Below are positions 45,949 to 48,203 of a DNA stretch of 64,000 bases, piece by piece. Position numbers and translations under genes: made by a program. Below the pieces are notes generated by a model. The model did not search any database. It was not told the origin of the DNA and saw only the letters and a program-made list of their open reading frames with translations. How positions within the stretch are numbered: the first letter of the stretch is position 1; each line of letters begins with the position of its first letter. Origin of the DNA: Pigmentiphaga aceris (GTDB lineage Bacteria; Pseudomonadota; Gammaproteobacteria; Burkholderiales; Burkholderiaceae_B); the NCBI RefSeq assembly GCF_008119665.1, contig NZ_CP043046.1:2604001-2668000 (forward strand), in the 5' to 3' direction.

Positions 45949-46317
45949 CGCGGGTGCCGGGGGCGTGGCGTCTGCCCCGCTGGACCTACGCGTCGGGGCT
46001 CCCGCCCTCCACGTCGTCCAGAAGGGCAGCCGCCACGCCCCCGGCACCCGCGCCTTCAGAACGGCTTGGTTAAAAGCGCATCCCGCTTTTGGGCGACTCG
46101 ATTTTTCTGGCTGCTCGGGTGCTGTACGCGGCTCCCCCGTATTGGCGTTTGTGGCTCTTAAGTTCCGAACCAGCTGGACTTGGGGACTTGGCTGGCCAGG
46201 TCGTCACGAAGCGATTCAGCGGCTTACGTTTCGGCCGACTTTTAAGTGACCTTTTAGCGCAGCGACACTCAAGGAAATTGCGCTCCTGCTTGGTGGTGGG
46301 GTGACACCGAAGCGGGT
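45949..46317 (+). repeat. Hairpin-headed repeat, left copy (interrupted by IS)
   Basis: The copy begins with a perfect 22-bp inverted repeat (45949-45970 with 46031-46052), extendable by six more pairs after one mismatch, enclosing a loop with the segment CCGCCCTCCACGTCGTCCAG. It continues through CCTTCAGAACGGCTTGGTTA, a TTTTTCTGGCTGCT segment, TGGCTGGCCAGGTCG and GGGTGACACCGAAGCGGGT, where the IS is inserted; the last bases of the repeat (GGCCGCACG) resume at 47572. A homologous inverted copy lies at 47826-48203. No protein-coding gene is supported between 45785 and 46317. Confidence 0.85.
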
Positions 46318-46384
46318 TGTAGTGGTCCAATAAAAGTGGACACCTCGATAGGGGGATAATTTCTCCAACGAGGACACTGACGAT

Positions 46385-46684
46385 ATGACGACACCTAACC
46401 GCAGAACGTTCGATGCAGCTTTCAAGCTGCAAGTGGCACAGATGATTCGTGACCAGGGTTTAAGCGTAATGCAGGTCTGCAAGGACCTGGGCTTGGCAGA
46501 AAGCCCGGTCCGCCGCTGGTTGGCCCAGTACGATGCCGAGCAGCTTGGCCAGCCTGGCCTGGGCAAGCCGTTGACCGCTGAGCAGCAACGCATCCGTGAA
46601 CTGGAGCGAGAGAATCAGCGTCTGCGTGAGGACGTGTCGCTGTTAAAAAAAGCATCGGCCTTCTTCGCCCGCGAACTGAAGTGA
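46385..46684 (+). CDS. IS3-family OrfA (DNA-binding transposase subunit)
   Basis: This 99-residue OrfA has an N-terminal helix-turn-helix ([44 protein letters not shown]) and a C-terminal leucine-zipper-like coiled coil ([26 protein letters not shown]). A run of seven A followed by G (46645-46652) near the 3' end is a slippery site; a -1 shift there enters the orfB frame without meeting a stop, producing the OrfAB transposase as in other IS3 elements. Confidence 0.95.
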
Positions 46685-47529
46685 TCCAACGGATCATTCA
46701 CCAGTGGCAGGAGAAGGCCAGCGTGACCCGTTTGTGCAGATTGTTGAGCGTCAGCCGCTCCGGGGTGTACGCAGCACGCCGACGGCGTGCTGCGCCCAGG
46801 CCCTGTGCCTTGGCAGCCCCCGTTCAGGCCGCCTTCGACGCCAGCGGTGGCAACTACGGCAGCCGACGTGTGCGGGAAGCCCTGAACGCTGATGGGTTGA
46901 TGGTAGGTCGCTATCGGGTTCGTCGGTTGATGAAACAGCTTGCGCTGCAACCTCGCTGGAAGCGCAAGTTCGTGCATACCACCGACAGCCGACACGACCT
47001 GCCGATCGCCGCCAACGTGTTGAACCGACAGTTCAGGCCGGCTGCGCCGAACCAAGCGTGGGTGGCCGACATCACGTATATCCGCACCGACCAAGGCTGG
47101 CTGTACTTGGCCGCCGTGCTGGACTTGTACTCACGCAAGGTGGTGGGCTGGTCGATGGCACCGGCCATGCCTGCTGAACTGGTCTGCAACGCGCTGCAGA
47201 TGGCGATCACACTGCGTCAGCCCAAGCCTGGCCTGATCGTGCATACCGACCGTGGCTGCCAGTACGCAAGCCATGCCCATCGTGACTTACTGGCCAAACA
47301 TAAGCTGGTCGCCAGCATGAGCCGAAAGGGCAACTGTTGGGACAATGCCGTGATGGAACGCTTCTTCCTGAACCTCAAGATGGAGCGGGTGTGGCAGCGC
47401 CGTTATGCCAATGCGGCTGAAGGGATCGTCGACATCAATCACTACATCGTGGGCTTCTACAACACCCATCGGCTGCACTCGACGCTGGGCTATCAATCAC
47501 CGGCTGACTACGAGAAAGTTAGCCACTGA
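46681..47529 (+). CDS. IS3-family OrfB (DDE transposase domain)
   Basis: This is a 282-residue integrase-like domain. The catalytic triad is Asp130 ([10 protein letters not shown]), Asp190 ([11 protein letters not shown]) and Glu226 (DNAVMERFF), the last two separated by 35 residues (D-x35-E). An HTH_21-like N-terminus ([15 protein letters not shown]) and the end [11 protein letters not shown] are typical of the family. The GTG at 46681 overlaps the orfA stop; expression is probably through the -1 frameshift in orfA. Confidence 0.95.
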
Positions 47530-47571
47530 ACACCCTATCTCCGTGTCCATTAAAACTTGACCACTACAGGT

Positions 47572-47825
47572 GGCCGCACGTAAACGGCTCGCGGGAGAAA
47601 GGCTGAGGGGGCGGCGGTTTCACGTTGCTACTCAGTGCTCGGTGCGTCAGTTGCGTGGTAGACCACTTAGTGTTCGGAATACGCCTATTCGTTGCCAGAG
47701 CGCGCTGCGCAGTTACCGTCCAGCATTCAGAAAATCGGCTCGGCGCTCACTCCTTGACGTGGAACGCTCGTCCCGAACGGGTCTGGCCAGCGGCCGTCTG
47801 CACCCCAGTCATTCTCCGCATGCTA
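47572..47825. other. Non-coding spacer between repeat copies
   Basis: About 250 bp lie between the IS-distal end of the left repeat and the right repeat. The first bases still belong to the interrupted left copy. No open frame with recognisable protein similarity, hairpin terminator or promoter was identified here. Confidence 0.5.
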
Positions 47826-48203
47826 TTACCGTGCGGCCACCCGCTTCGGTGTCACCCCACCCTTGAGAAAATAGGAGACACATCGAGCTGCCGCAACGTA
47901 AAAGGCCTCTGAAGGACGGCCCTAGCCGTGAGCCGTTAAATCGCTTCGTGGCGACCTGGCCAGCCAATCCCCAACGCCAGCCGCGTGGCAATTAAGAATG
48001 GCAGCCCACGAATGCCGAGAACCGATTCCAGCACCAAGCAGCCAGAAAATCTCACGCTGTCCAAAGGCGGGATCAGCTTCTAACCAAGCAGTTTTGAAGG
48101 CGCGGGTGGTGGGGCCGTGGTGGCTGCCCTTCTGGACGAGGTGGAGGGCGGAGACCCGACGCCTAAGTCAAGCGGGGCAGCCACCACGGCCCCACCACCC
48201 GCG
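47826..48203 (-). repeat. Hairpin-headed repeat, right (inverted) copy
   Basis: Read on the minus strand, this is homologous to 45949-46317 along its whole length: a stem-loop head followed by CCTTCAAAACTGCTTGGTTA, ATTTTCTGGCTGCT, TTGGCTGGCCAGGTCGCC, CACGAAGCGATTTAACGG and GGGTGACACCGAAGCGGGT. The head is a perfect 29-bp inverted repeat (48101-48129 with 48175-48203). Four stem base pairs differ from the left copy, yet each change is matched on the opposite arm, so pairing is kept. Uninterrupted, it shows the likely end of the unit (GGCCGCACGGTAA). Confidence 0.85.

Follow-up and report, generated by a model that had tools for sequence, protein, structure and literature searches.

Arms of an intergenic hairpin repeat in Pigmentiphaga aceris are surrounded by a polar, strand-biased compositional halo

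The window, by which we mean the whole 64,000-nt stretch of Pigmentiphaga aceris Mada1488 DNA that was analysed, contains at 45949-48203 an element whose outer ends are long hairpins with tails directed inward. An earlier note on this DNA had described the segments 45949-46317 and 47826-48203 as two inverted copies of a hairpin-headed repeat. A repeat search finds the inverted homology to be real: the arms 46002-46092 and 48061-48151 match at 88%, 45943-46002 and 48150-48209 at 85%, 46183-46256 and 47899-47972 at 76%, and the inner segments 46295-46317 and 47839-47861 at 100%. The same search returns two hairpins (arms 45946-45985/46016-46055 and 48098-48137/48167-48206), and the perfect outer stems of 22 bp and 29 bp are present as described, as are the paired stem differences between the copies. 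The homology far exceeds what chance would give, but the two copies are really the arms of a single element, ~1.0 kb long once an insertion at 46318-47568 that splits it is subtracted. The supposed copy boundary at 46317 is merely the point of that insertion, and the left arm resumes from 47572. From its domains and ends (TGTAGTGGTC...GACCACTACA) we read the insert as a member of the IS3 family; it is accompanied by a 3-bp duplication, GGT, beyond which the left arm continues with GGTGGCCGC, matching the family consensus. No host gene lies within, as had been claimed, but the IS3 transposase genes do. The features are listed below, where halo denotes a G/T-rich flank and solo arms are arms without a partner.

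45049-45948, plus strand: left halo, plus strand G/T-rich; GT 0.71, 0.665, 0.645 and 0.562 at 0-100, 100-300, 300-500 and 500-900 bp outward
45935-45948, plus strand: pre-hairpin motif of the left arm; consensus GTTCTTNNGYCAGT, copy here GCTGTGTAGCCAGT, from a 64-arm alignment
45946-46055, plus strand: left hairpin, A-type stem, loop with CGCCCTCCAC
45949-46317, plus strand: left arm up to the IS3 insertion; model match at contig 2649935-2650057, 130.7 bits
46318-47568, plus strand: putative IS3-family insertion sequence; ORFs 46385-46684 (HTH_Tnp_1) and 46681-47529 (rve); GGT duplication
47569-47612, plus strand: GGT duplicate and end of the left arm (GGTGGCCGCACG...), the end estimated from solo arms of ~400 bp
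47613-47793, no strand assigned: core between the arms, borders estimated; homologous among many family members
47794-48203, minus strand: right arm, B-type, inner border estimated; contig 2652096-2652217 minus, 137 bits
48098-48206, minus strand: right hairpin
48204-48217, minus strand: pre-hairpin motif of the right arm
48204-49103, minus strand: weaker right halo, G/T-rich on the minus strand; GT 0.69, 0.55, 0.50 and 0.525 in the same bins

The repeat is not unique to this locus. A genome search with copy A gives 39 other near-full-length matches at 77-85% identity among the best 40 of 116 candidates (itself included), and a covariance model built on 64 hairpins places at least 87 arms in the P. 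aceris genome, at 121-148 bits, among the matches listed. The remaining 63 of the 150 listed matches are antisense shadows at 56-72 bits, and arms scoring under ~56 bits would fall outside the list. By position, the 87 arms form 41 convergent couples and 5 solo arms at 45 loci. The couples span 880-1261 bp in 37 of 41 cases, the other four measuring 1806 bp (L030, which encloses a GFA-domain gene), 2255 bp (the window), 2502 bp (L023, which contains a Mutator-type transposase) and 3836 bp (L068, better read as two solo arms with LysR, SDR and GST genes in between). Because solo arms stop ~400 bp from the hairpin, we take the arm to be the unit: polar, non-coding, ~400 bp long, with a hairpin of ~107 nt at its head, the sequence GYCAGTCGCG at the hairpin foot, and a tail of ~290 nt that has near-invariant blocks. 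Allowing at most one mismatch, GTTCTTNNGYCAGTCGCG has 59 matches in the genome, 55 of them at arm feet, 3 in upstream units 41-69 bp away from one, and 1 a stray. A second pre-hairpin unit ~30-50 bp upstream was scored in 14 of 87 arms (25 of 87 beat all 20 shuffles), and tandem units are present as four 39-bp copies at L031 and 18-bp copies at L029; we read these as local slippage at the foot of the hairpin. By simple ORF/GC3 gene calls, the genes flanking the first 33 elements are convergent in 18 cases, co-directional in 14 and divergent in 1. A degenerate protein-coding gene, which the earlier note had raised as a competing reading, is excluded by the lack of 3-base periodicity in the tail, and protein-coding origin is rejected also on the ground that any single frame is fully open in 20 of 87 arms at most. 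The IS3 insertion, the 87-copy family, the solo arms and the strand-biased halo had all escaped the earlier note.

Among the genomes searched, the arms are found in P. aceris alone. The model has no match in any of 10 other Pigmentiphaga genomes, with the best 150 candidates scored per genome, and a search of relatives, as had been proposed, matches 0 of 267 other genomes of the taxonomic family (the 10 of the same genus included) with the best 13 candidates scored per genome, a number small enough that divergent relatives could escape. A 26-base loop pattern has no exact match in the GTDB representative collection, from which its own genome is perhaps excluded, or in viral contigs, and blastn against plasmids and phages gives no match. 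At ksgA, where P. aceris carries a solo arm, the gap to the convergent neighbour (presumably 'spm', a label that NCBIfam above cut-off does not supply) is 476 bp compared with 7, 19 and 16 bp in three same-genus relatives, so that this copy is an insertion; these three are the ones among 10 relatives with both flanking genes on the fetched locus, the other seven loci being without ksgA. The earlier note recognised no named repeat family, and Rfam 15 likewise gives no credible match, its sole match scoring 17.7 bits against a gathering threshold of 70 (E 0.56). The titles and abstract openings at the top of literature listings yield no description of the repeat or the halo, preprints and most subscription papers lying outside that search; in the literature so searched the family is undescribed.

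The paired stem changes had been taken as a sign that pairing is preserved, and across the family this is only partly upheld. Over a three-part stem in 64 of the 87 arms, 97.0% of stem cells pair, and the covariation score is 0.126 against 0.042 +- 0.004 in shuffled alignments, a value that 0 of 500 shuffles reach; slid versions of the stem give at most 0.036. Stem pairs changed on both sides number 7, a count equalled by 5 of 500 shuffles. But further pair types are no more numerous than in shuffles, 434 of 500 of which give as many or more, and column pair 17/117 is unpaired in 35 of 64 arms. Columns 24/110 and 29/105 always switch jointly, which gives a B-type stem in 58 of 87 arms and an A-type stem in 29; the strongest paired changes thus represent two linked haplotypes, and no more than three or four positions vary on their own. 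At column pair 23/111, mismatched intermediates occur besides three standard types, and 55/79 is recombined relative to the outer type: 12 of 87 arms have discordant stem and loop types, and one more is ambiguous. Partner arms are 79.4% alike, compared with 80.2% among all arms. Pairing is therefore maintained, yet part of the covariation signal is two haplotypes shuffled by conversion, a process that both the mosaic types and the likeness of partner arms, no higher than random, favour. Hairpin-templated correction, offered in the earlier note as an alternative to selection, may have a part in this. The suggestion that the tail also forms part of a structured element fares less well, in that its consensus fold has few compensatory changes and many one-sided breaks. 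We thus reject a structured RNA over the whole arm and keep structure for the hairpin alone. What survives of an "undescribed structured intergenic element" is a non-coding intergenic element that is present in many copies and has a conserved hairpin; the evidence does not extend to a large structured RNA.

The surprise at these loci is the halo; the repeat by itself would be merely another intergenic family. We call the strand reading into the hairpin the arm-forward strand. On it, GC skew per 100 bp outward averages.33,.27,.27,.24,.21,.15,.12,.08,.05 and.00 over the 87 arms, and TA skew falls from 0.49 to 0.06 across 1 kb. GT over the first 500 bp exceeds 0.55 in 82 of 87 arms (minimum.54). 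In background 500-nt intervals from these 64 kb, without 43-51 kb, it has a mean of.517, a standard deviation of.033 and a maximum of.592, which 71 of 87 arms surpass. Values above 0.62 are reached by 52 of 87 arms, compared with 3 of 1931 overlapping intervals lying more than 2 kb from arms that go beyond 0.62 or below 0.38, and all 3 belong to one spot, a GT-rich stretch without an arm (L065, 5800-6500). In the window, the 12 most GT-rich 500-nt intervals all begin just left of the left hairpin, at 45151-45701, and the rightmost of them extend into the arm. On the weaker right flank, the FAD-oxidase gene adjoining the right arm has GT3 of 0.78, 0.68, 0.52, 0.68 and 0.55 counting from its stop and 0.34 at codons 300-450.

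The halo extends into the silent sites of neighbouring genes. In 60 genes whose 3' end lies at an arm, GT3 is 0.81, 0.78, 0.78 and 0.75 in successive blocks over the final 150 codons and 0.51-0.54 over the first 100 codons, compared with 0.49-0.52 throughout in 229 other genes; in 11 genes whose 5' end lies at an arm the sense-strand GT3 shifts in the opposite direction (.46/.40/.34). In two-fold codons no more than 300 bp from an arm, T/(C+T) is.68 vs.31 and G/(A+G) is.84 vs.57, shifts of C-to-T and A-to-G type with approximately four-fold odds that are gone by 900-1500 bp. Orthologues in relatives show the gradient weakly or not at all in the two genes compared (named by NCBIfam): isocitrate lyase has GT3 of.82,.64,.74 and.64 in P. 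aceris vs.54-.58,.42-.52,.42-.46 and.38-.44 in 6 relatives, and ksgA has.78,.88 and.78 vs.52-.62,.62-.70 and.50-.66 in 3 relatives. For an ABC-transporter ATPase, a search of the relatives gives paralogues only. As a pattern, a polar halo of ~1 kb around the copies, in which A and C on the forward strand give way to G and T, is well supported.

Several properties of the halo bear on its cause. Replication fork direction does not account for it, since halos facing the origin and the terminus are alike: GC skew is.34/.30/.26 in 46 origin-facing arms and.31/.23/.19 in 41 terminus-facing arms, with sides assigned by assuming the origin at base 1 and the terminus half-way. The genome report places dnaA first on the P. 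aceris chromosome of 6,165,255 bp (PMC6788695). Insertion age is rejected as a cause of halo strength because the latter is uncorrelated with nearest-copy identity (rho 0.04), and selection for a Chi-like or other motif is rejected because no k-mer dominates. The reading that we favour, with slightly less than even confidence, is that each arm is the focus of a recurrent event that exposes or resynthesises the forward strand. The main rival, possible although doubtful, invokes R-loops: RNA transcribed in the arm-forward direction would stall or re-anneal at the hairpin, and the displaced non-template strand, which is the forward strand, would mutate. The sign of the halo does suit deamination of a non-template strand, 67 of 87 arms have an inward-reading neighbour, convergent genes flank 18 of 33 elements, and the codon shift is greater in inward- than in outward-reading genes. 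Genes reading away from the arm have overall an opposite and weaker sense-strand codon shift, so transcription may add to the halo; the exception is their first 300 bp, where T/(C+T) is.389 vs.312, the wrong direction (n=72). However, the halo is nearly the same whichever way the neighbour reads (.633 in the 67 arms with an inward-reading gene,.607 in the 20 with an outward-reading one), which argues that gene transcription is not its main driver. Moreover, the skew drops to zero within genes that are transcribed whole, and by eye some arms lie beyond an apparent native terminator.

Two-ended breaks at the palindrome, made by SbcCD-like cutting and followed by resection on both sides, seem improbable to us. 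The hairpins are strong and the skewed strands are the inward 3' strands on both flanks of a couple, as such breaks would predict, but the solo arms are skewed otherwise. In 7 solo arms the forward-strand GT is.553,.635 and.693 upstream and ~.60 in the tail, and downstream it remains at.60 for 200 bp (.53-.71 in single arms) before falling to.526; next to the tail of one of them, GT3 of 'spm' is 0.12 in its last 50 codons vs 0.32-0.54 in 13 relatives. One strand is therefore skewed upstream, through the tail and for ~200 bp downstream, unlike a two-ended break, which skews both inward strands. Nor does a Chi-like motif stand out: the E. coli Chi occurs 13 times inward vs 9.4 expected and 6 times in the other direction vs 1.0 expected, a comparison to be read with the reservation that the host Chi may differ. 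That the repeat instead enters gene ends already rich in G and T is unlikely, though two observations speak for it, namely that halo strength is unrelated to copy similarity and that the L032 and L036 arms, 97.5% alike with flanks wholly different outside about -9 to -14, both carry halos (.65 and.57). The latter pair implies either recent conversion onto old sites or sites that were skewed beforehand. Against such a preference, stretches of this composition are nearly absent elsewhere in the loci examined (the 3 of 1931 intervals above), the orthologues tested have none, and the profile is maximal at the hairpin and tracks arm orientation even where genes read away. Improbable, too, is a selected RNA element at mRNA 3' ends, with a G/T-rich sense strand kept, for example, for Rho-dependent ending of antisense transcripts. 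Enrichment between convergent genes, hairpin covariation and the C- and A-rich antisense of the flank agree with it, but such a signal should neither cover 450 bp of silent sites nor appear where the gene reads away, and the strand leading outward from the tails of solo arms is opposite in composition. Neither strand has a U-run after the stem, which continues with CCTTCA inward and ACTGGC or ACTGAC outward, and an intrinsic terminator is rejected for the same reason. Mutagenesis coupled to reverse transcription, as in diversity-generating retroelements (DGR), retrons or group II introns, would suit the polar gradient seen ahead of an RNA-like structured end, but it is very improbable and largely refuted: RVT_1 (PF00078) has 0 matches in the genome (3 of 14 control genomes are positive), the change is not limited to A, and its sign would fit the opposite strand.

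Under the strand-exposure reading, a recurrent event at the hairpin, such as nicking or strand displacement and then gap repair, would leave some hundred bases of the forward strand either single-stranded or freshly synthesised, and errors would pile up on it. Conversion between copies would result from the same repair, giving A/B mosaics and partner arms without special resemblance, and hairpin pairing would be kept by selection or by conversion because the process needs it. By inference, polymerase errors on a new strand would yield both A>G and C>T. In isocitrate lyase, C>T and C>G account for 9 and 8 of 37 C sites, and in ksgA for 7 and 6 of 21; on these tallies, which rest on three genes of which two are hairpin-side, the two changes are about equally frequent and plain deamination does not explain everything. 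Counting against strand exposure, the window's own right halo is weak past 100 bp. Slightly more tentatively, the arm could be a local strand-specific mutator of ~1 kb of neighbouring DNA, genes included, that spreads or is homogenised by the same repair.

At 46 places, then, the composition and silent sites of ordinary genes such as isocitrate lyase and KsgA have been reshaped over up to ~1 kb with a fixed strand polarity. If strand exposure or resynthesis is indeed responsible, the halos would be a natural readout of chromosomal sites that are repeatedly single-stranded or resynthesised, and mutagenesis at DNA hairpins would become testable in a living genome. They would further caution against ascribing every local GC skew in a bacterial genome to replication direction.

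The family resembles REP and BIME elements in consisting of intergenic hairpins, often in inverted couples, at gene 3' ends. The Bor repeats of Bordetella, 26-30 bp long, are described among elements of this type (PMC1590033). REPs are palindromes of 20-40 bp with a GTAG or CGTC tag (PMC3733652), whereas the P. aceris unit is ~400 bp long with a hairpin of ~107 nt and GYCAGTCGCG at its foot. The Y1 (TnpA_REP) transposase, PF01797, has 0 matches in the P. aceris genome, with 5 of 14 control genomes positive. In 250 kb of E. coli K-12, 32 sites that resemble the REP consensus have GT of 0.48-0.52 within 500 bp and no TA skew; their GC skew is weak (+0.04 to +0.11 upstream, -0.02 to -0.10 downstream), and a small part of the halo may thus be general to gene ends. 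MITEs and foldback elements are likewise non-coding, ~1 kb long, bounded by long inverted terminal arms, located between genes and confined to one lineage. The 41 couples have inverted arms of ~400 bp, and presence and absence among relatives is seen at one site, the solo arm at ksgA. By eye, the edges of L032 and L036 show no target duplication, in a comparison for which no close relative offers an alignable empty site, and among the transposases found inside elements, the inserted IS3 (window) and the Mutator-type (L023), none appears to use the element ends. The P. aceris family differs from MITEs in its solo arms and its outward halo.

Single-strand origins (sso), like other hairpins that initiate ssDNA synthesis, act with polarity from a long hairpin with a conserved loop, and we propose them as an analogy for the arm, from which they differ in that no plasmid or ICE context is seen around the P. 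aceris arms and no Rep protein was identified. The composition itself resembles the skews left by asymmetric replication, as in vertebrate mitochondrial DNA and the bacterial leading strand, where lasting asymmetric mutation leaves an excess of G and T on one strand, with deamination in the mitochondrial case. For vertebrate mitochondrial DNA, replication is held to cause the strand-specific composition (PMC10730292). The P. aceris halo differs from such skews in being local, ~1 kb in extent, repeated at 87 arms, and far above the residual GC skew of +0.01 and -0.04 at 2-3 kb from the arms.

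At two of the loci fetched around family copies (each with its own local numbering), tandem repeats lie immediately at the foot of the hairpin: approximately eight 18-bp units (CAGTCGTTGTACGTGGGC) at L029 4041-4191, and four 39-bp units at L031 4304-4460, each of the latter ending with the pre-hairpin motif, the conserved short sequence at the arm foot, and the first bases of the stem. In the window, a stem and T-run resembling an intrinsic terminator (48241-48273) is located between the right hairpin and the stop codon of the FAD-oxidase gene. Judged by eye, similar terminator-like stems seem to precede several other arms, with the arms lying beyond them.

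An isolated match to the pre-hairpin motif on the P. aceris chromosome (G000:C1:2026057-2026074), for which the nearest same-strand arm is ~8 kb away, is possibly the remnant of a lost arm. Inside a gene at L065, a stretch with a + strand GT content of 0.62-0.65 (5800-6500, about G000:C1:1584800-1585500) has no adjoining arm: an orphan halo, a G/T-rich flank perhaps left by an arm since lost or inverted; the gene itself adjoins an apparent further copy of the IS3 element.

Two arms at L068 (4433-8268) enclose three ordinary genes (LysR, SDR and GST), as if the pair were a cargo-carrying composite, or else two solo arms. Close to another family element, L023 6388-6434 matches the Guanidine-II riboswitch (mini-ykkC) at 43.5 bits.
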